This document shows positions 6,038 through 29,840 of a DNA stretch of 29,840 bases, piece by piece. Position 1 is the first letter of the stretch, and each line of letters begins with the position of its first letter. Both the position numbers and the translations under genes were made by a program. Source of the stretch: a virus; the IMG/VR virus record IMGVR_UViG_3300046718_000600, positions 1 to 29,840 of that record; one strand, 5' to 3'. A model generated the notes under the pieces. The model worked only from the letters and a program-made list of their open reading frames with translations, ran no database searches and was not told where the DNA came from.

Positions 6038-8248
6038 ATGGCTGGGTTCATTCGACGGTACACGTCCTTCCCAGGGGTGGAGACCATCACCCTCATCGAA
6101 GGCGTCATCATCATCGATCTTCCGCCCCCCGGAAACATCACGGGCGTCGGCACGGGTGTGGTCGCCATCGTTGGCGAGTTCGCTGACATGACGTACGCCG
6201 CGATGGCAGACGCCAACGGCGGCATCGTCACCAACCCGCGCCCGGTCGAACTGTTCTCCGCGCAGGACATGCAGGACAAGCTCGGTGGGTTCGACCCCAC
6301 CATCGGCGACTTCGGCAACTCCTGCGGCAATGGGTTTGTAGCCGTCAGAAACAAGCAATACAGCCGCCTCATCGGTGTCCCGGTAAACCTGTCTTCGCCG
6401 GAAGCGGTGCGCTTGTGGCGGCAGCTACCGACGAATACGAGCGCCACCAACACGACCCCCGCTGTGCCGATGCAGGCGGCCGGCGTCGCCCCGGGCACCG
6501 AGTTCAAGCTGGGCGACAACCGGGTCGACCTGAGCGCGCGCGTCTCGTTCAACGACTTCGCGGCCTACGAGACCGGCATCGACGGCTCTATCGTTCCGGC
6601 GGGCTTGCCCGTAGCGATTCAGCCCTTCGCATCGCTGGGCGCGGACTTCATCAAGTTTCAGGTGAAGGTCGGCGACGCACTCGTCCTCGACGTCATCCCG
6701 AGCGAGAGCACGACTCTGTTCTCGGACATCGACGCGGTCGTGACCATCATCCCGGTGGTCTCGACGGCCGGCTTCCCCGCGTCGGGCGTCATCGAAATTG
6801 AGACGGAGTTCATTACGTACACGGCTGTCACGTCGACCAGCTTCACGGGCGCCACTCGTGGTGCTCTCGGCTCAGTCGCGACCGCGCACACGGCCGGCGC
6901 GACGGTGTCGGCGGTCAACGATGCGGGAACGTACCGCGTGGCGTCGGTCGTCGATGCGAACAACCTGACTATCGAGCGTCAGGACGGGTCGAACTTCACG
7001 GACTCGAACTGGCTCGCCTCCGCGCTTTTCCCCAGTACGTTCGTTCCGTGGCGCCTGCATCTGGCCTCGACGGCGGACACCGGGGCCAACACCATCCTGG
7101 CGCAGGCTCCGGGCTACACCATCCCGGCGCGGCCGCTTGATGCTTCCATCGCAGCGTCCACGGTCATCAACCCGACCATCGCCGCGCCGGCTGCCACGGC
7201 GCTGTCGTGGAACCCGCTGTCGGGGCTCCAGATGACGTCGGGGCTCACGGGCCTCGCGTTCGACCCGGCCACCCAGGCGCCCAACGCCCCGGCGTCGTCG
7301 TTCATGGACGTGCTGTACCTGACCGCCATCGATTCGCTGCTCGGTGAGAACGCGCCGGCTCGCGATGTGAACCTGCTCGACGTGGCGCGCACCTCGAACA
7401 ACATCCGCGTCAAGCAGAAGTCCCACGTCGAGCAGTCGTCAGCGGTCGGTGTCGGGCGCACCACCACGGTTTGGCCGGAGCTTTCGGTCACCAACACGTC
7501 GGCGGTGCTTGGTGATGTGAGCCCCGGCGTCGGCGCGTACCGCGACGAGCGCGTGAACTACTCCTGGCCGGGCGCCAAGACGTTCGTGCCCGAGGCCGTC
7601 CCGTTCCTCATCCCGACGTCGGACGGTCATCTGGCCGGCGGAGACCAGAACCACCCGGCGGGAATCATCGAAGTGCCTGCCGCCGGGTGGCTCATCTCCG
7701 TCGAGTCGAACCTTCCGCCGGAGAACAACCCGGGCCAGTCCGCGCCGCCGGTTCCCGGCATCATGGCTCCGGTCATCGGGTTCCAGTACGGGGCTCCGGT
7801 GCTCGGCATGTCCGAGTACATCCAGTTCCGGCACTCGGGTATCGCCGCGCTCCGCATCGACCGGACGGTGGGCGCCATCTTCCAGTCGGGCATCACGACG
7901 GACCTCGTCCCCGGCCAGAAGAACATCAACCGCCGCCGCATGGCGGACTTCATCGAGGACAGCATCGCGGAGGCGCTCAACCCGCTGTCGAAGCTGCCGC
8001 TGACGCAGAACCTGCGGGACGCAGCCACGGCGGAGTGCGTGGCCTTCCTCGACTCGTTGCTCTCGCCGAACAACCCGGCGGCTCAGCGCATCGACGATTA
8101 CGAGGTCGACACCAAGAGCGGCAACACGCCGACCTTGGAAGCGCAGGGCGTCTTCGTCATCATCATCCGCGTTCGCACTCTCGCCACGGCCGACTTCATC
8201 GTGCTTCAGGCCGAGATCGGTGAAGGCGTCACCATCACTCGGGCGTAA
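6038..8248 (+). CDS. Tail sheath protein with inserted beta module
   Basis: Predicted contractile sheath subunit that wraps the tube and shortens on infection. The C-terminal third carries sheath signs: IRFRHSGIAALRIDRTVGA-like region (here RHSGIAALRIDRTVGAIFQS, about 598-617), then NINRRRMADFIEDSIAEAL (about 630-648), then a beta strand with VIIIRVRTLATADFIVL near the end; conserved Arg-Arg followed by a helix is typical of sheath domain I. At 736 residues it is longer than common sheaths (about 400-660). Part of the excess is a 60-residue module (about 231-293) with GFPASG, TEFITYT and SFTGATRG that also occurs twice in the baseplate protein at 17218-19035. The ATG follows GGGAGAGG. Confidence 0.9.
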   Translation: MAGFIRRYTSFPGVETITLIEGVIIIDLPPPGNITGVGTGVVAIVGEFADMTYAAMADANGGIVTNPRPVELFSAQDMQDKLGGFDPTIGDFGNSCGNGFVAVRNKQYSRLIGVPVNLSSPEAVRLWRQLPTNTSATNTTPAVPMQAAGVAPGTEFKLGDNRVDLSARVSFNDFAAYETGIDGSIVPAGLPVAIQPFASLGADFIKFQVKVGDALVLDVIPSESTTLFSDIDAVVTIIPVVSTAGFPASGVIEIETEFITYTAVTSTSFTGATRGALGSVATAHTAGATVSAVNDAGTYRVASVVDANNLTIERQDGSNFTDSNWLASALFPSTFVPWRLHLASTADTGANTILAQAPGYTIPARPLDASIAASTVINPTIAAPAATALSWNPLSGLQMTSGLTGLAFDPATQAPNAPASSFMDVLYLTAIDSLLGENAPARDVNLLDVARTSNNIRVKQKSHVEQSSAVGVGRTTTVWPELSVTNTSAVLGDVSPGVGAYRDERVNYSWPGAKTFVPEAVPFLIPTSDGHLAGGDQNHPAGIIEVPAAGWLISVESNLPPENNPGQSAPPVPGIMAPVIGFQYGAPVLGMSEYIQFRHSGIAALRIDRTVGAIFQSGITTDLVPGQKNINRRRMADFIEDSIAEALNPLSKLPLTQNLRDAATAECVAFLDSLLSPNNPAAQRIDDYEVDTKSGNTPTLEAQGVFVIIIRVRTLATADFIVLQAEIGEGVTITRA

Positions 8249-14413: not shown

Positions 14414-15153
14414 TGCTGAAGAAATCTCGTGTCTCCGGGACGATGGACGTCGGGCGGCTGGCGAACGCTCTGTCGCGGCCGGGCATCGACCCGCGCACCT
14501 GGGTCACGCTGGCGACGGTGACGGCGTTCCACCTCGACGCGAACGACGGGCCGTATGTCGACGTGTCCATTCTGACCGACATGATGATCGACAATGACGG
14601 CAACCCGGTGCCCCACATCGAGACGGCTCGGGTGGGCTCGTTCTACGCGGGCAACGGCTTCGGTTTCTACGCGCCGTTGGCGGTGGATGACGAGGTGGTC
14701 GTCGGGTACCCGAACGGCGACCCGGACCACGGGCTGGTGGTGATGGCGCGCGTCTGGTCGAACCCTGACCCGCCGCCCACTCTTGCCAACGACCACCCGG
14801 CCGACCTGTGCCTCCAGGTCCAGAAGGACGTGACCCTCCGCATCCAGGTGTTCGGCGCCGGCAACGTCGTGCTCGGCAGCGAGAACGGGAAGGTGCTGCT
14901 GGGTGAGGAAGGCGCTGACCGGGGCGTGGCCCGCGGGCCGGCGCAGCTTGGCAACGGGGATGCGGTTGGGATTGTCACTGTCCCGAACCCTGCTGGCGTT
15001 CCTCCGACGATTGCTGTGGCAGGCGTGCTGACGTTCGTTGGTACGGGGTCGCTGCTGTTCACACCGACGGACCCAACGGTCCCTCCGGTCTCTGGGGCCA
15101 TTCCGTTGGCCGGTGAGATTCGCACTGCGTCGGACAAGGTGAAATCGGTATGA
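14413..15153 (+). CDS. Baseplate spike protein (gpV / gp5-like, OB fold)
   Basis: 246 residues. After a short N-terminus comes an OB-fold region (about 27-118) with WVTLATVTAFHLDANDGPYV, FYAPLAVDDEVVVGYPNGDP and GLVVMARVW, the order expected for gpV and Mu gp45. A repetitive beta region follows with LRIQVFGAGNVVLGSENGKV and LLGEEGADRGVARG, as in spike and VgrG proteins, where the piercing beta-helix follows the OB domain. No lysozyme domain and no His-rich iron tip were seen, so a separate tip or a short spike is possible. It starts by a TGATG overlap with the hub gene and ends with an ATGA overlap into the next gene. Confidence 0.8.
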   Translation: MLKKSRVSGTMDVGRLANALSRPGIDPRTWVTLATVTAFHLDANDGPYVDVSILTDMMIDNDGNPVPHIETARVGSFYAGNGFGFYAPLAVDDEVVVGYPNGDPDHGLVVMARVWSNPDPPPTLANDHPADLCLQVQKDVTLRIQVFGAGNVVLGSENGKVLLGEEGADRGVARGPAQLGNGDAVGIVTVPNPAGVPPTIAVAGVLTFVGTGSLLFTPTDPTVPPVSGAIPLAGEIRTASDKVKSV

Positions 15154-16019
15154 GCCTCGGCTGGGGCACAGGCGGCTGGGGGCACGACCGGTGGGGCTTT
15201 GGTACGCCCTTCACCGAAGGCCCTGAGCTTTTCATCCAGAGCGCGTTCGCGGTCACGACACACTCGGTGCGGGTACTGTTCAGTACGGAGCCGCTGACGA
15301 CCTCGACGACCACGCTGGGCAGCGCGACTAACCCGAATGAGTGGACGGTCACCCGGTTGAACGACGGGTTCCAGTTCACTGTCCAGGCCATCATCGAGCA
15401 GCCCTCGGTCATTTTCGAGGGGTCGAACACCCCCGTGTTCGACGTGTACGTGCTGGAACCGCTCGGCTCTCTGGCCATCGCGCTGAACGTCTCGGCGCCG
15501 AACCTACTCCGTGCGGATGACCAGCCGATGATTCCGCCGACGGACTTCGGCTTCGTCGGGCTCGCGGGGCTGGCGACGGAGCGCCCGGAAGTCCCGATTC
15601 AGCGGCAGATCAACACGGTCGATGTCGCCAACCCACCGTTCCCGCCGACCGGGCAGTCCATCGGCGGCACACTCGTCATCAATCCGTCAGGGGACTACCA
15701 GTCGACTGCCGGGGCGGAACTGGTGCGGAAGCTCATCATCCGGCGGCTGACCACGCCCACCGGAGGCTTCTTCCACCTCCCTGACTACGGCTTCGGCGTG
15801 GGCGTGAAGGAGAAGTTCTCGACGACGGCGCTCATCCTGCTCAAGGCGCAGCTTGAGAAACAGATTCTGCTGGAGACGGAGGTCGAGGCTGCGTCGGTCA
15901 CGCCCGTGTTCCAGCCGACCAACAACTTGTTGCTGATTCAGATTCAGGCCAAGCTGCGGCCGTCGGGCGATACGTTGAAGACAACCGTTTCAGTCTCACA
16001 GGGCGGCATCGTTTTCTGA
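15150..16019 (+). CDS. gp25-like baseplate wedge protein with N-terminal extension
   Basis: 289 residues, while gp25/gpW proteins are near 110-140. The C-terminal part (about 185-285) fits the family: ELVRKLIIRRLTTPTGGFF, HLPDYGFGVGVKEK, a helix with LLKAQLEKQILLETEVEAA and a closing strand (LLLIQIQAKLRP). The N-terminal 170 residues are a separate beta-rich region that opens with a Trp/Gly motif (GWGTGGWGHDRWGFG, residues 4-18). gp25 is the sheath-initiating wedge protein, so the extension may anchor an extra baseplate or fibre part. ATG 15150 overlaps the spike stop (ATGA). Confidence 0.82.
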   Translation: MSLGWGTGGWGHDRWGFGTPFTEGPELFIQSAFAVTTHSVRVLFSTEPLTTSTTTLGSATNPNEWTVTRLNDGFQFTVQAIIEQPSVIFEGSNTPVFDVYVLEPLGSLAIALNVSAPNLLRADDQPMIPPTDFGFVGLAGLATERPEVPIQRQINTVDVANPPFPPTGQSIGGTLVINPSGDYQSTAGAELVRKLIIRRLTTPTGGFFHLPDYGFGVGVKEKFSTTALILLKAQLEKQILLETEVEAASVTPVFQPTNNLLLIQIQAKLRPSGDTLKTTVSVSQGGIVF

Positions 16020-20238: not shown

Positions 20239-22002
20239 ATGGCTCAGGCAGACATCACCATCAACGGCATCGACGAGTCGGACGATGACATGGTCATCGA
20301 CGATGTCGTCCTGCTCAACAACGTCAACAACGGCGGGGAGACGACGTTCTTCTGGCAGATCGTTGACCAGCCGCCTGGGCCTGACGATGTCCTATCCTCG
20401 ACGAACACACAGGCGTCTTCCTTCACCCCGCAGAAGGAAGGCACGTACCTCATCCAGCTCACGGTCAACACGACGCTCGTCGACCGGAAGATTGTCGGCA
20501 TTCGCCAAATCAAGAGTGGTATCCGCATCCCGGCTGCGCAGGAGACGGTGCAGGCGGGTACTCGTGGATGGGCGCAGTCTGCCGGCATCCTGCTCCAGCT
20601 TCTCGATGACCGCGCGGCTGACTCTGGCCTCTTCATCGCTCCGGTGGCTACAGCGGCTCCGCCGCTGTCTGTCGGGCAAGTGTGCCGTGCTGTCTCGACG
20701 GAGGTTCTCAAGGCGGGGCTCCCCGGACAGGAGTTCATCACCGGCTGGTCAGGCACGAACGCGACCATTGGGACGAACATCGACCAGCAGTTGGCCGTCG
20801 CCATCTCCGCGCTCGATGGCTCAGCGCCGCCGTTCGCCCCTGGAGAGATGGTCATCTTCCGCCTCTACGGTCCCTACGATGGGCTGACCGGAGCGCCGGC
20901 TTCAGGTGACTCTGTCTTCGTCAGCAACACCGGCTTCATCAGTACGGTTCCAGGCACGGTGCCTCGCAAGATTGGCAACGTGACCCGTTCCAGTGCCGGC
21001 ACCTACGACGTCTGGGTGGACGGCTCCGGTGGCCCGGACGGCGCGGTGCTGACGCTGCTTCCGCCTGTCAACGTCGACAAGTCCCCGGCGGTCATCGGTG
21101 CCGGGCTCACGGCCGCCCGGTTTGACCACAAGCACGACATCAACACGGCGGTGGTCGGGTCCATCACCATCGGCGCCGTTGCAGCCGAAGGTGTAGCAAC
21201 CACGCTCGCTCGTTCTGACCACACGCACGGCTTCGCATCGCCGGCTGTTCCAGTGAACGTGGACAAGTCCGCCGCGTCTGCGGGTGTGGCTGCGACGGTG
21301 GCGAGGTCAGACCACAAGCATGACATCACGACGGCGACCCCAGGCGGCATCCTGGTCGGTGACGTGGCGGCGGAGGGCGTAGCCACGTTCCTCACCCGCT
21401 CTGACCACAAGCATTCTCTGGCTGCGCCTGCCGCCCCGGTCAACGTGGACAAGTCGGCGGCTTCAGCCGGCGTCTCGACCAACGTCGCGCGTCAAGACCA
21501 CAAGCACGACATCAGCACTGCCACGCCAGTGTCTGTCAGCAACATCAACACTGAGGGTGTCGCCTCCACCCTTGCGCGGTCAGACCATACTCACCTGGGG
21601 ATGTTCCTCCAGACGGTGTTTGCTGAGATCACCGTCGACACCACTACGCTATCGAGTACATTCGTGTCCCTGCTGTCGCAGGTCATCACTACTCAGACTG
21701 GAACGAACCTGCTCATCTACCTCACCTCGGGGGTGTCGAACAACACGAACGATAGGGACGTTTTCTTCCGCGTCCAGGTCGACGGCGTGACCAAGCGCGG
21801 TGTCGGCGTGGAATGTCACGCAAATGGTGAAGCTGTTTCGGCGGCTATGGTTCTCAAGGTGACCGGGTTATTGGCGGGCGCGCACACGGTGCTTGTTCAG
21901 TGGCGCGCGTCGACCGGTGGCGCGAACACGGCTCAGATTCGTCCGGTGACTGCGCCTGATGCTGAGCACTTCTCGCTGCTGTTGGAAGAGGTGACGGTGT
22001 AG
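20239..22002 (+). CDS. Tail fibre protein with 31-residue HxH repeats
   Basis: 587 residues in four parts: an Ig/PKD-like N-terminal domain (about 1-85: TFFWQIVDQPPGPDD, then KEGTYLIQLTV); a mixed domain (about 85-285) with IRIPAAQETVQAGTRGW; a repeat shaft (about 285-455) with six D-H-x-H motifs at His 297, 328, 359, 390, 421 and 450; and a C-terminal beta-sandwich (about 460-587) with DVFFRVQVDGVTKRGVGVEC and LLAGAHTVLVQWRAS, resembling a TNF/C1q-like jelly roll. HxH motifs bind iron in T4 gp37-type fibres. The protein is probably a trimeric fibre whose C-terminal head touches the host. Confidence 0.8.
   Translation: MAQADITINGIDESDDDMVIDDVVLLNNVNNGGETTFFWQIVDQPPGPDDVLSSTNTQASSFTPQKEGTYLIQLTVNTTLVDRKIVGIRQIKSGIRIPAAQETVQAGTRGWAQSAGILLQLLDDRAADSGLFIAPVATAAPPLSVGQVCRAVSTEVLKAGLPGQEFITGWSGTNATIGTNIDQQLAVAISALDGSAPPFAPGEMVIFRLYGPYDGLTGAPASGDSVFVSNTGFISTVPGTVPRKIGNVTRSSAGTYDVWVDGSGGPDGAVLTLLPPVNVDKSPAVIGAGLTAARFDHKHDINTAVVGSITIGAVAAEGVATTLARSDHTHGFASPAVPVNVDKSAASAGVAATVARSDHKHDITTATPGGILVGDVAAEGVATFLTRSDHKHSLAAPAAPVNVDKSAASAGVSTNVARQDHKHDISTATPVSVSNINTEGVASTLARSDHTHLGMFLQTVFAEITVDTTTLSSTFVSLLSQVITTQTGTNLLIYLTSGVSNNTNDRDVFFRVQVDGVTKRGVGVECHANGEAVSAAMVLKVTGLLAGAHTVLVQWRASTGGANTAQIRPVTAPDAEHFSLLLEEVTV
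21121..21597 (+). repeat. Tandem 93-base repeats encoding D-H-x-H motifs
   Basis: Six units, spaced 31, 31, 31, 31 and 29 codons, each ending in an R-S/Q/F-D-H-K/T-H motif after a GVA/GVS-type stretch. Pairs of units alternate between a VNVDKSAASAGV form and an AEGVAT form, which suggests a two-unit (62-codon) duplication. Confidence 0.85.
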
Positions 22003-24472: not shown

Positions 24473-25546
24473 ATGCCGGCAGCAATCGACATCATCGGGA
24501 TTCTAGCGGACGGGACGAACCCGTCGCCGGCTCTCCCGCAGAACACCCGCCGCACCATCGGGTTGCAGCGGTCGACCGACATGCTCATCCGCATGACGGT
24601 GCTCTACCCTAATGGGGCTCCCGTTGACCTGACCAACGTCATCGTCATGTTCACGATGAAGCTGGTGCCCGAGCAGCCGCCGCTCATCTCACGGCTCGGG
24701 CTCCCGCCTTCCATCCCGGCGCCCACCAACCGGGTGGACTTCACGCTGGCGCCTATCGACACCATCTACCTGCCGGCGGGGCGCTACACCTGGGACGTCC
24801 GTGCGAAGTTCGGGCAGAAGTGGGAGACGCTGGTCGGGCTCTCGGTCTTCCTCATCGAGCCGAACGATGGAGACCCTGACCAGCCGCTGACGGTGGTCAG
24901 CCCGGTCGTGTTCTACGTCTGCAACCCTCCGCTCATCGCCAACCAGTCATTCGATGAGGGCATCTTCTCCATCCTCGAAATCGGCAACTCGTCCATCAAC
25001 CCGAGCGCGTCAGTTGTGTACAACCGCCCGCCAGATTCCGCTCAGGTGGTGGATGGGCTTCACGTTCCGCTCGATCTGGTCACGCCGTTCACGAACTGGC
25101 AGGAACCGTTCGTCTACACCCAGACCATCATCAACGCGGAGCAGGACTTCATCCTGACGGCGCTCAAGGCTGGTGAACCGCCGGCCACCTCGACCCTGTC
25201 GCTGTTCTGGCAGCCTCTGGTGTACTGGGGCTCGGCACCCATCCCCGGCGTCTACGATGCGAGCTTCATCACCGGGCTCTCGGACAGCAAGCTCCTGCCG
25301 TCGCAGGTCTACTCGCCTGGGTACAGTGCCGGCCCGACGGAGCACCTGTACTACGCGGTCCCGTCAGTGTACGAGGCGCAGCCCGGGAACTTCATCGACA
25401 CCCAGACGGGCATCGTGGCGGGGATGCACTTGGCGGAGTCGGGCGTCTCGGTGCTCAACGCCTTCTCGGTCCTCATCCCGTACGACATCTGGGAGTCGGA
25501 CGTAGCGGGCCTCGGTCCCATCACCCTGTCGGTTACTGGTGGCTGA
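24473..25546 (+). CDS. Baseplate-attached receptor-binding-type protein with BppU-like N-terminus
   Basis: 357 residues. The first 125 resemble an upper-baseplate (BppU-type) N-terminal domain: LQRSTDMLIRMTVLYPNG, PVDLTNVIVMFTMKL and LPAGRYTWDVRAKFG, followed by GLSVFLIEP. The C-terminal 110 residues (GSAPIPGVYDASFITGL, then LYYAVPSVYEAQPG, then NAFSVLIPYD) are homologous to the C-terminus of the next gene (GSAVPAAFTEAFIEALTGSG, LYIAYPTAFGTPAS, NAFSVLVPGG). I infer an N-terminal attachment domain and a C-terminal surface head. The ATG has no strong ribosome site; it follows the upstream stop by 6 bases. Confidence 0.68.
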   Translation: MPAAIDIIGILADGTNPSPALPQNTRRTIGLQRSTDMLIRMTVLYPNGAPVDLTNVIVMFTMKLVPEQPPLISRLGLPPSIPAPTNRVDFTLAPIDTIYLPAGRYTWDVRAKFGQKWETLVGLSVFLIEPNDGDPDQPLTVVSPVVFYVCNPPLIANQSFDEGIFSILEIGNSSINPSASVVYNRPPDSAQVVDGLHVPLDLVTPFTNWQEPFVYTQTIINAEQDFILTALKAGEPPATSTLSLFWQPLVYWGSAPIPGVYDASFITGLSDSKLLPSQVYSPGYSAGPTEHLYYAVPSVYEAQPGNFIDTQTGIVAGMHLAESGVSVLNAFSVLIPYDIWESDVAGLGPITLSVTGG

Positions 25547-26517
25547 TGCCTAACTCGAACATCCCCATCGATTCGCAGCTCGTCCGCCGCAACGATGCGG
25601 ACTTCGTCCTGGTTGATGACACCAACCTGGGCGGCTCGCTGCGTGTCGTGCCTGACCTCGTCGCACGCGCCAACATCCCGTCGAGCATGCTCAAGGTGGG
25701 GATGGTCGTGTTCGTCCAGTCGGACAGCACGTACTTCACGCTGACGGTTGTCTCGCCGCCCACGTACATCCCGCTCGTGTTCCCGGGCGGCCTGCCTCCG
25801 TTCAGCGGGACCGATGGCGCGGTGGTCGTTGAGGAGGGCAATCCGACGCCCTTCGCCGAGTTCCGGCAGCTCACCGAGGATGACATTCAGCCGGCTTTCG
25901 CGGACTCGCTCTTCTCGACGCTGGTTCAGGTGCAGGAGCTTGGCGCGTCCATCTCGGGTCCGCAGTTCACGGCGACCTACGTCGGTACGCCCATCGTTGC
26001 AACGCTGGCGGATGGCGTCGACTCGCAGTTCATCCCATCGCCGTTCCTGTCGTTCGGCTACGGGCCGCCGGGCACGTTCCCGGCTCGCAGCTACTCCAAG
26101 TCGACCATCAACGCGACGGTCACGTGGGTGCTCAATGCGAACGCCGCCAACAGCCCGAACCGCACGTCATCCATCACGGCGGTGTGGGAGGCTCGTCGGT
26201 TCTTCGGCAGCGCGGTGCCGGCGGCATTCACTGAGGCGTTCATCGAGGCGCTGACCGGCTCAGGGCTCGCGCCCAATGAGCTTGGCGTCTTCCCCTTCGC
26301 CGCGCCGACGGCTGGCAAGAAGCTCTACATCGCGTACCCGACCGCCTTCGGGACGCCGGCCAGCATCAAGGACCAGAACGGTATCCTGTTCCCGATGGTC
26401 GTGGCTGCTACTGCGGTTCCGGTCACGAACGCCTTCTCGGTCCTAGTTCCTGGCGGCTACACCGTGTTGGAGAGCTTCAATTTTATTACCCAACCTTTCA
26501 CGCTGACGGTGACCTGA
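25546..26517 (+). CDS. Receptor-binding-type fibre protein, C-terminus shared with upstream gene
   Basis: 323 residues, start coupled by TGATG. The N-terminus (GSLRVVPDLVARANIPSS, then KVGMVVFVQSDSTYF, about 29-65) matches that of the next gene (GGYRVVATLADRDAIPAS, KFGMIVFVQANGFAY). The C-terminus (about 225-323) is homologous to that of the previous gene. It is thus a chimera of both neighbours' modules. Probable role: surface fibre with an exchangeable binding head. The residues needed for ligand contact cannot be told. Confidence 0.68.
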   Translation: MPNSNIPIDSQLVRRNDADFVLVDDTNLGGSLRVVPDLVARANIPSSMLKVGMVVFVQSDSTYFTLTVVSPPTYIPLVFPGGLPPFSGTDGAVVVEEGNPTPFAEFRQLTEDDIQPAFADSLFSTLVQVQELGASISGPQFTATYVGTPIVATLADGVDSQFIPSPFLSFGYGPPGTFPARSYSKSTINATVTWVLNANAANSPNRTSSITAVWEARRFFGSAVPAAFTEAFIEALTGSGLAPNELGVFPFAAPTAGKKLYIAYPTAFGTPASIKDQNGILFPMVVAATAVPVTNAFSVLVPGGYTVLESFNFITQPFTLTVT

Positions 26518-27116
26518 TGGCTGCTGGAGACATCTTCGTCGGCGGTACCTTCCGACCCGGCGGCCCGTTCGGCATCACCGAGGACTCGCAGACCATCGGC
26601 GGCTACCGCGTGGTCGCGACGCTGGCAGACCGTGATGCCATCCCCGCGAGCATGCGGAAGTTCGGCATGATCGTGTTCGTCCAGGCCAACGGGTTCGCGT
26701 ACAAGCTGAATGCTGACCTGACGACGTACATCCAGACGGGCGCTGACTCTGTCCTGTCGAACACGGATTATGCGTGCGCGCCCACGGTCGCCATCGGCGA
26801 CATCATCTACCTGAGCGGTGTCGACACCATCGCCAAGGCATCGGCGTTCTCGCTGGCCACGATGCCGTCCATCGGGCTCGTCTACGCCAAGCCGACGTCG
26901 ACCAGCGCGGTGGTCATCTACGAGGGGGAGTTGGCGGTGTTCACTGGGCTCGTTCCAGGTACCCGGTACTACGCCTCGGTCGTGGCTGGCCAGATTGTGC
27001 CGCCCGGTGACGTCAACTTCCCGTCAGTGACTGGCAACGTGCTTCAGGATATCGGCCTCGCGCGGAACTCGACCACGCTGGTCATCGAAGGCACGTTCGC
27101 GACGATTGTTCTGTGA
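26517..27116 (+). CDS. Fibre-associated protein sharing the N-terminal module
   Basis: 199 residues, start coupled by TGATG. After a Gly-rich opening (FVGGTFRPGGPFGITED), residues about 26-60 hold the module shared with the previous gene. The rest is beta-rich: YACAPTVAIGDIIYLSG and GLVYAKPTSTSAVVIYEGEL, then GLVPGTRYYASVVAGQIVPP, a pattern found in the short repeats near the tips of phage fibres. Probably part of the fibre network; the exact role is unknown. Confidence 0.65.
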   Translation: MAAGDIFVGGTFRPGGPFGITEDSQTIGGYRVVATLADRDAIPASMRKFGMIVFVQANGFAYKLNADLTTYIQTGADSVLSNTDYACAPTVAIGDIIYLSGVDTIAKASAFSLATMPSIGLVYAKPTSTSAVVIYEGELAVFTGLVPGTRYYASVVAGQIVPPGDVNFPSVTGNVLQDIGLARNSTTLVIEGTFATIVL

Positions 27117-27134: not shown

Positions 27135-29840
27135 ATGTCTGACTTTCGCGCGATCATTGGGAACCTCGCCATCGGGTCGTTGCAGCGCATTCAGGACACC
27201 GACGCGCTGCTCGTCGGCACGGGTATCAAGTCGAACACGGGCGACCTGAACCTCACCCCGGCGGGCTCCAACGTCGTCATCCCGGCTGCGAAGACTCTCC
27301 AGGTCGAGACGGTCACCGTCAGCGGGCTCCTGGCCACGACGGGCTCGGGCAACATCAACCTGCCCAACAACGGCTCGGCTCGGTTCCAGATTGGCAGCAT
27401 CTCGGTCGGCGCCACGGTCATCTCGGCGAACCTGAACACGCTGACCAACGGGTCGAACGCCGACGCGCTCCATACCCACAACTCGCTCGTCCCGGCTACG
27501 CGCACCATCACGGCGGGTCCTGGCCTCACGGGCGGCGGAGACCTCTCGGCGAACCGGACCATCTCGACCGGCGGCGTCGCCGATGCGACCTACTCCACGG
27601 GCTCGTTCACGTGGGCTGGTGCGAGCGGCAAGAACCTCTCCCTGGCCTCGACCGGTGCAGGGACGATTGGTGTCTCCTCGGCAGCAGCTCTCTCGTTGTC
27701 GGGCGGCGCTGCGTCCAGCCTCACCACGTCTGCCGGCGCTCTGACCATCACGGCAGCGGCAGCTTCGACGTGGGACTCCAAGGACGGCACGGTCAGAGCT
27801 GGCGTTTACGACCGTACGACCGCGGGCATCCTCAACTTGGGCGGCGTCGCGACCAGCGCCGTCATGAGCTTTGCGAGCGTTCAGGTCTGGAACTTCACGT
27901 CGGCGCGCATCGCGCCCATCACGGACAACACGGGGACGCTCGGTGCCCCGGCTGCCCGCTTCGCCAACACGTACTCGCTCATCCTCAAGAGTGGCGACAC
28001 CGCGGCGAACGACACGACGGGCTCGGCGCTTCAGATTCTGGCTCAGCTTGGCGGCCCCGCATCGGCAACTGCTGGCGGCGTCGGCGGGCAGATTTCAATT
28101 ACGGCTGGAGCCGGCGGTGCCTCGAACGGCACGCTCGTGGCTGGAGCCGGTGGCGCCACGACTGTTGTTGGCGGAATTGGCGGCGTTGGCTCGGCCAACA
28201 TCCAGGGCGCGACTGGTGGAACGGGCCAGTTCCAGGGTGGTCAGGGCGGCGACGGCACGGTGACGGTGTCCGCTGGTATCGGCGGCACGGCCAACCTCCG
28301 AGGTGGTCAGGGCGGAACCAACCTCGGCGGCGGAGCCGGGACTGGCGGCGCTGCTACGGTGCTCGGCGGTACCGGCGCGGCAGCGAGCGGGAGCAGCTCG
28401 GGCGGAACGGGCGGTGCCGCGAACCTGACCGGCGGTACTCCTGGCGCGTCCTCTGCGGGAGCCTCTGGCGGAGCCGGCGGCGCTGTCGTCATCACCTCTG
28501 GCAACGGCATCGCGAGCCCCGGTGTCGGCTTCACGGGCACGAATGCGGGCGGCTTCACGCTTCAGGGCGGCATTCCAGGCGCTCCTTCTGCGGGCACCAA
28601 CGGGACGACGGGGACCCTCGGAACGGCTGGCGGCGCTGCGACCGTTCTGACCATCTCTTCGGGTAACGGTTCGGCTGGGGCGGCCGGCGGCTCAGGTACG
28701 ACCGGGACCGGCGCGGCTGGTGGTACTGGCACTGGGTCAGGCACGACTCAGTTCAATCAGGGTACCGCTGGCGTCGGCGGAGCGGGCGGCGCTACGAGCG
28801 GCGGCGGTAATGCTGGGAACGGCGGTAACGGCGGCTCTGGTGGCACCTGGAGCATCATGGCTGGTGGCTCGTCCCGCTCTGGTGCGGGCGGCGTCGGCGG
28901 CAATACGACGGCCGGCGGAGCCGCTGGCGTCGGAGGCCAGGGTGGCTTGGGCACGGCCCTCAACCTCGCGACCGGGAACGCGGCCAACGGTGGAGCGGGC
29001 GGCAACGGTGGTGTCGCGACCGGTGGCGGCACGAACGGGAACGGTGGTCCTGGCGGCGCTGGTTCGACCATCACCATCGGCACGTTCTCCTCTCTGGTCG
29101 GCGGTACGGGTGGAACGGCTGGTGGTGTTGCCGCTTCGGGTGGAACCGGAGGAGCCGGCGGCGGCGTCACCATCCAGGCTGGCAACGGCGGGCTCGGTGG
29201 TGCCCCGAACGGCGGCACGACTGGAGCCGGTGGCGCGGCTGGAACCGCTAACCTTTCGAGCGGCAACGGCGCGGCAGCTCAGACGGTGGCTGGGACGGCG
29301 GGTGGGCAGACCATCATCGGTTGCGGAACTGGCGGCGCTTCGGATGGTGTCGGCAACGCGGGCACGGGCGGCGCCCTTCTTCTTCGTGCCGGCGTTGGTG
29401 GTGCGGGCTCGGGCAACATCTTCGGTGGCTCGGGTGGAACCGCGACCTTCCAGGGAAACCTCGGTGGAGCGGGAACTGCCACGGCGGTCGCGGGCAACGG
29501 TGGCGGTGTCACGATTTCTGGCGGTACTGCCGGTGCGAACAACGGCGGAGGCGGAGGCAACGGCGGTACGGTCACCGTCAACGGCGGCCTCGCGACGGGC
29601 GCGGGCATCAATGGTTCTATCATCTTTCAGATCGGTGGCATCACCAAGTGGACCATCGCGGGGACGGGCAACGGCAACCTGTTCCCGGCTGTCGACAACT
29701 CGGTCACCCTCGGAGACCCGACCCACCGTCTGAACGCGGTCTTCTCGTTCCTGGTTTCGACTGGCGGAACGACCGCCGCAGCTAACGACACGAACGGCGG
29801 TGGGCTCGTCCTGAACAGCCAGCAAGGCGGCGCGGCTCTC
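27135..29840 (+). CDS. Very glycine-rich tail fibre, 3' end outside window (partial)
   Basis: ATG 27135 follows GAGGAGACCTGAG and the frame has no stop in all 902 codons to the right edge. Order: N-terminal domain with LQVETVTVSGLLATTG and a DALHTHNSL motif (about 1-120); the common fibre sequence TITAGPGLTGGGDLSANRT (about 124-142); a beta region; a W-x-F...P-x-x-DN-x-x-TLG-x-P module (about 255-285); a glycine-rich block (about 306-824) with roughly two in five residues Gly; then a second copy of the TLG module (about 849-885: FPAVDNSVTLGDPTHRLN). The block is over 20 short strand-plus-Gly repeats. Similar glycine-rich regions form polyglycine II bundles or beta-solenoids in known adhesins. 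The second module copy suggests that the whole unit repeats further on. Confidence 0.8.
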   Translation, partial: MSDFRAIIGNLAIGSLQRIQDTDALLVGTGIKSNTGDLNLTPAGSNVVIPAAKTLQVETVTVSGLLATTGSGNINLPNNGSARFQIGSISVGATVISANLNTLTNGSNADALHTHNSLVPATRTITAGPGLTGGGDLSANRTISTGGVADATYSTGSFTWAGASGKNLSLASTGAGTIGVSSAAALSLSGGAASSLTTSAGALTITAAAASTWDSKDGTVRAGVYDRTTAGILNLGGVATSAVMSFASVQVWNFTSARIAPITDNTGTLGAPAARFANTYSLILKSGDTAANDTTGSALQILAQLGGPASATAGGVGGQISITAGAGGASNGTLVAGAGGATTVVGGIGGVGSANIQGATGGTGQFQGGQGGDGTVTVSAGIGGTANLRGGQGGTNLGGGAGTGGAATVLGGTGAAASGSSSGGTGGAANLTGGTPGASSAGASGGAGGAVVITSGNGIASPGVGFTGTNAGGFTLQGGIPGAPSAGTNGTTGTLGTAGGAATVLTISSGNGSAGAAGGSGTTGTGAAGGTGTGSGTTQFNQGTAGVGGAGGATSGGGNAGNGGNGGSGGTWSIMAGGSSRSGAGGVGGNTTAGGAAGVGGQGGLGTALNLATGNAANGGAGGNGGVATGGGTNGNGGPGGAGSTITIGTFSSLVGGTGGTAGGVAASGGTGGAGGGVTIQAGNGGLGGAPNGGTTGAGGAAGTANLSSGNGAAAQTVAGTAGGQTIIGCGTGGASDGVGNAGTGGALLLRAGVGGAGSGNIFGGSGGTATFQGNLGGAGTATAVAGNGGGVTISGGTAGANNGGGGGNGGTVTVNGGLATGAGINGSIIFQIGGITKWTIAGTGNGNLFPAVDNSVTLGDPTHRLNAVFSFLVSTGGTTAAANDTNGGGLVLNSQQGGAAL
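28050..29605 (+). repeat. Degenerate glycine-rich coding repeats
   Basis: Within the last gene, over 20 imperfect units of a short alternating strand followed by Gly-x-Gly-Gly, for example ISITAGAGG, ANIQGATGG, VTVSAGIGG, VTIQAGNGG, LLLRAGVGG and VTISGGTAG. Spacing varies (about 12-35 codons) and the DNA is not identical, so these are ancient or selected repeats and not recent tandem copies. Confidence 0.8.

Follow-up and report, generated by a model that had tools for sequence, protein, structure and literature searches.

What is encoded by a long glycine-rich reading frame at the very end of a phage contig, and what does its repetitive interior build? We followed this question for P0001, a gene on the linear IMG/VR virus record IMGVR_UViG_3300046718_000600, the whole of which (29,840 bases) was analysed and is called the window below. 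In both the ORF list and the record, P0001 was open for 902 codons without a stop and ran off the contig end, as the initial annotation had stated, and the Gly-rich block of about 520 residues described there was also found (38% Gly over residues 301–840). In our judgement, P0001 rather likely serves a tailed phage as a surface fibre, or an appendage resembling one, built of modules: an N-terminal docking part, TLG joints and an elongated beta shaft or spacer. The phage probably has a contractile tail.

Modules and gene neighbourhood of P0001

The features of P0001 and the adjoining genes are listed in Table 1. At the limits used, neither P0001 nor its block had a Pfam, PHROG, NCBIfam or PDB match. 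The N-terminal segment was 34% identical to the N-terminus of L019, and residues 1–55 were 36% identical to L011; both of these proteins carry Gly-rich blocks of the same kind, hereafter Gly-strand blocks. Over residues 98–115, identity to relatives reached up to 89%. The phrase TRTITAGPGLTGGGDLSANRTIS is often met in phage tail fibres. The W..P..DN..TLG module (TLG module) that had been seen before and after the block was real, its two copies (residues 241–309 and 828–901) being 32% identical over 74 columns in an alignment whose E-value is that of a two-sequence comparison. This alignment also confirmed the presumed super-repeat, in the form module–block–module. The block (about residues 317–827) is internal, between the two TLG modules, and the contig stops where a second Gly-strand block would start. 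In the part of P0001 that precedes this cut, which lacks the C-terminus, neither a receptor-binding nor a chaperone domain was observed.

Table 1. Features of P0001 and of the genes before it (positions in the window).
Feature	Position	Strand	Basis or remark
P0001 gene, fibre-like virion protein, 902 codons	27135..29840	+	3' end cut by contig end
N-terminal segment, residues 1–96, likely attachment end	27135..27422	+	identity to L019, L011
NADALHTH (HxH) motif, residues 108–115	27456..27479	+	within best-conserved stretch of P0001
TRTITAGPGLTGGGDLSANRTIS segment of P0001	27498..27566	+	sequence
TLG module 1, residues 241–309	27855..28061	+	module alignment
Gly-strand block part A, residues 317–459, 22-residue period	28083..28511	+	unit score, autocorrelation
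Gly-strand block part B, residues 460–660, 37-residue period, GGX (lag-3) character	28512..29114	+	autocorrelation, lag analysis
Gly-strand block part C, residues 661–827, spacing of about 22 residues	29115..29615	+	unit score, autocorrelation
TLG module 2, residues 828–901, and start of possible second block	29616..29837	+	module alignment
Virion protein of 199 aa adjoining P0001	26517..27116	+	L080 homologue also precedes Gly-strand gene
Two more tail-region genes, 357 and 323 aa	24473..26517	+	matches in L080

P0001 lies in a tail gene module and carries shared fibre modules. Upstream, the genes at 1558–2955 and 15150–16016 matched a major head protein and a baseplate protein, respectively. 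The C-terminus of the ORF at 6038–8248 (736 aa) matched tail sheath (E 1.5e-7), and its residues 223–302 matched baseplate, fibre and virion families with E-values lower than that of the sheath; the sheath-like and baseplate-protein matches upstream of P0001 are weak. On a 245-kb contig (L080), matches to the genes starting at 24473, 25546 and 26517 were located directly before a Gly-strand ORF. The fibre motifs, the tail gene context and this conserved neighbourhood support the earlier reading of P0001 as a fibre-like virion protein.

The ORF at 6038–8248 may be a sheath-like protein bearing an inserted domain. The genes starting at 25546 and 26517 both contained a phrog_23630-like segment, weak in the former, and shared a 46-base stretch with 83% DNA identity (within 25546–27116); both findings suggest a shared or duplicated domain. 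A 587-aa protein at 20239–22002 carried repeated DHxH motifs (DHKHD, SDHTHG) in units of about 35 residues. It had no PHROG match at E 0.001, and its repeats resemble the metal-binding HxH motifs of fibre needles.

Periodicity and predicted fold of the block

To score the repeat, a position-specific score of 15 columns was built from 627 units of relatives, with GG-x-h-x-h-x-(G/A)-G as the canonical unit. At a score threshold of 5, P0001 contained 12 units, compared with means of 2.9 and 3.1 and maxima of 8 and 7 in residue shuffles and dipeptide-preserving shuffles, respectively. At a threshold of 8, it contained 10 units against shuffle means of about 1 and a maximum of 4. The initial annotation had counted over 20 repeats; this figure holds by eye and as length over period (about 24 × 22 aa), but the canonical units number only 10–12. 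The Gly autocorrelation peaked at lag 22 in residues 300–460 (z 4.6) and at lag 37 in residues 460–660 (z 7.2). The block, with a Gly content of 38–39%, was also high in Ala, Ser and Thr.

Comparison of the block profile with the PDB gave two matches under strong composition bias: 9gtr, a Gp5/VgrG-type spike, at E 1.7e-4, and 4kh3, antigen 43, at E 0.004. We take both to be beta-helical proteins. Hydrophobic alternation at lag 2 rose above z 2 in 20 of the 33 relatives' blocks. Together, the weak profile matches and the alternating hydrophobics of the relatives favour a reading of the block as predicted Gly-turned beta strands. For P0001 overall the hydrophobic lag-2 signal was weak (z 1.1), which counts against this reading. 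The likeness to the spike extends to the putative short strands ending in A-G-G turns. In known Gp5/VgrG spikes the repeats are regular octads and the head is an OB fold, whereas the units here are of 16, 22 or 37 residues with loops.

AlphaFold2 gave a pLDDT of 31 for P0001 as a single sequence, and this model is uninformative, speaking neither for nor against disorder. The block of the relative L052, modelled with a 29-row alignment, reached a pLDDT of 56 with almost no strands assigned; without a deep alignment or an oligomer, pLDDT is uninformative here. Foldseek with the L052 block model found no PDB match. Its BFVD matches, three uncharacterised Caudovirales proteins with query TM-scores of at most 0.18, were discarded as fold evidence.

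An alternative that deserves weight, though we consider it unlikely, is that the block forms a polyglycine II lattice like those of S16 gp38 and Pam3 gp24 and is itself the receptor-binding tip, with inter-motif loops giving host range. The Gly-rich domains of S16 gp38 and Pam3 gp24 are distal, comprise 73 and 125 residues, respectively, and have long Gly runs (PMC6851490, PMC9608196); PP01 gp38 resembles S16 gp38 (PMC12892980). Like these phage fibres, P0001 has repeated Gly-rich motifs, and its 38% Gly is near the 39% given for Pam3 gp24 (PMC9608196). Gly periodicity at lag 3 and lag 6 was found in the middle third of the P0001 block, and the near lack of strands in the AlphaFold model of the relative's block agrees with such a lattice. 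Against it, the Gly runs of P0001 reach at most 5 (at most 3 in parts A and B), compared with the motifs GGGGGGGG and GGGGxGG of S16 and Pam3. Neither GGGGxGG or longer nor GGX throughout was found in P0001. Alternating hydrophobic strands recur, and lag-3 periodicity above z 2 was seen in 1 of the relatives' 33 blocks and absent in 32. The P0001 block of about 520 residues, with its predicted short alternating strands, is internal rather than distal, and it is at least four times as long as the known domains. The polyglycine II bundles cited in the initial annotation agree with the lag-3 signal of the middle third but are not the simplest reading, lag 3 standing at 1/33 against 20/33 for lag 2. 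A mixed structure of beta strands and polyglycine II is possible in P0001, because lag 3 in the middle third occurs together with a weak overall lag-2 signal. Collagen-like GXY triplets (PF01391) were not found in P0001, and parts A and C had no lag-3 periodicity.

A flexible or elastic linker, rich in Gly and for the most part disordered, is an improbable reading of the block. The low pLDDT values (31 and 56) and the high content of Gly, Ala, Ser and Thr would fit such a linker, but pLDDT says little under the conditions given above, and the significant periodicity, the strand-like pattern and a spacing of mostly 14–24 aa across many loci argue against it.

The preferred reading of P0001 is the modular fibre. 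Its N-terminal part, which bears fibre motifs, would dock to the virion, and the TLG modules would be folded joints. Between them, the units of 22 and 37 residues would consist of short strands, with hydrophobic and polar residues in alternation, that end in Gly-rich turns. Together these units would form a long shaft or spacer of beta structure, probably a trimer, which sets the reach and may expose variable loops.

Gly-strand blocks on tail and head proteins of other phages

IMG/VR was scanned with a DNA pattern that encodes two units in a row, and at least 120 stretches were found. Among the matches listed, the best ORF had at least 4 units in 89 of 120 stretches and at least 10 in 28 of 120. 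The same pattern gave less pure matches in prokaryote genomes (at least 4 units in 45/116), where other Gly-rich proteins were included. Gly-strand ORFs were also present in prokaryote records of Bdellovibrio, Azospirillum and a deltaproteobacterial MAG (L196, L156 and L212, respectively). Across many loci, the units of relatives were mostly 14–19 aa apart, with a shoulder at 20–24. Proteins with comparable blocks had lengths of roughly 400–2400 aa. One locus (L120:1427-12951) had three adjoining ORFs, all with Gly-strand repeats, the middle one of 1835 aa. Among uncultured phages the Gly-strand block is widespread, yet none of the libraries searched here has a curated entry for it. The shaft claimed in the initial annotation stands, as a shaft or spacer, as the role we favour, but P0001 is large rather than giant in view of its relatives, and the scan shows that its pattern, once thought unlike common fibres, is common in uncultured phages. 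None of the titles listed from the open-access literature described the repeat; subscription journals lie mostly outside this scope, and an earlier description is possible.

With the full P0001 ORF back-translated, no whole-protein relatives were found, while its back-translated N-terminal 300 residues did find relatives. A tblastn search of P0001, L020 and L019 against annotated phages, with the low-complexity filter on, gave no match. The IMG/VR loci L020, L021, L019 and L080 combine Gly-strand blocks with fibre modules and share with P0001 the N-terminus and TLG plan (L019), the 22-residue period (L020) or the gene neighbourhood (L080). L019 has the order N-terminus, block, TLG module, block, module. 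These loci differ from P0001 in module order, and the common segments are short and diverged. In whole-block alignments with phmmer, the scores of P0001 against relatives were inside the range of shuffled P0001, and such block-to-block scores were rejected as homology evidence. Common descent of the blocks is thus our presumption, and convergence of composition and pattern would also agree with these scores.

Among 63 relatives' ORFs, Pfam identified Phage_cement_2 in 5, Collagen in 3, and Peptidase_S74, a depolymerase C-terminus and BppL_N in 1 each; Peptidase_S74 was fused to the same block type in L149. PHROGs assigned relatives' ORFs to head-decoration, tail-fibre and baseplate-connector families, and the N-terminus of L134 matched cyanophage baseplate wedge-fibre connectors. 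In L089, L122, L138 and L145 the block was fused to Phage_cement_2 (PF09956), each ORF adjoining a major head/protease gene; a portal gene was also present at three of the four loci. These cement-fused blocks had 7–14 units, compared with 0.2–0.8 in shuffles, mostly 16–17 residues apart. As judged from such matches, one pattern is borne by both predicted capsid and predicted tail proteins.

These four head-module loci raise the question of whether P0001, instead of belonging to the tail, sits elsewhere on the virion, for example as a decoration of the cement type or a fibre of the head. We regard this as improbable: P0001 had no PF09956 match above the cut-off and carries fibre motifs, and some 24 kb separate it from the major head gene, with the baseplate-like gene in between.

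Where a repeat is used at the head as well as the tail, the nearest analogues would be the Ig-like domains and collagen-like repeats of phages. Such repeats (T4 Hoc, SPP1 gp12; PMC7602432) occur on tail fibres, baseplate and head decoration and add reach or adhesion. Many phages may use the Gly-strand block likewise, on proteins of the tail-fibre, baseplate-connector-like and capsid-cement kinds. P0001 differs in its predicted Gly-turned short strands and had no Pfam Ig-like or Collagen match. Comparisons with gp38, Pam3, an archaeal adhesin and decoration proteins were drawn from PMC6851490, PMC12892980, PMC7602432, PMC9608196 and PMC8651126.

We tentatively put forward a wider proposal, which may well fail: a single undescribed fold of Gly-turned short strands (16-, 22- or 37-residue units) could serve tailed phages as a mobile module for display. 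It would pass between tail fibres, baseplate connectors and capsid-cement proteins and do the same job as the Ig-like domain of phages. Modules found on heads and tails alike, among them Ig-like domains and collagen-like repeats, are thought to control how phages adhere to surfaces and how far they reach. The Gly-strand block would be one more such module. It is frequent in uncultured phages, contigs of more than 200 kb included, but our searches of Pfam, PHROGs and NCBIfam did not contain it, and it had no confident PDB relative. If the proposal is true, it would account for many uncharacterised virion proteins, and it gives concrete targets for structure determination.

Reading frame of the block and contigs of the same population

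Relatives matched residues 1–237 of P0001, and TLG module 2 continues this frame on the far side of the block; translation therefore passes through the block. Run at its lowest score, Tandem Repeats Finder reported for P0001 no DNA array that was long or high in copy number (none exceeded 3.7 copies of 9 bases), so the protein repeat reflects no recent DNA expansion, and this argues against a collapsed or expanded assembly of the block. Although other frames are also open for about 340–370 codons in this GC-rich stretch, an assembly artefact or non-coding low-complexity DNA is barely credible, given the frame confirmed on both sides of the block, the lack of a long array and the same block type in many independent contigs.

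G001 and G002, two contigs from this virus population, match the first part of the window at 99–100% identity and add sequence on the head side of the genome; the fibre region downstream was sought in both and was in neither. G001 had matches to terminase, portal, DNA polymerase and queuine tRNA-ribosyltransferase, the last at L270:17732-18640.
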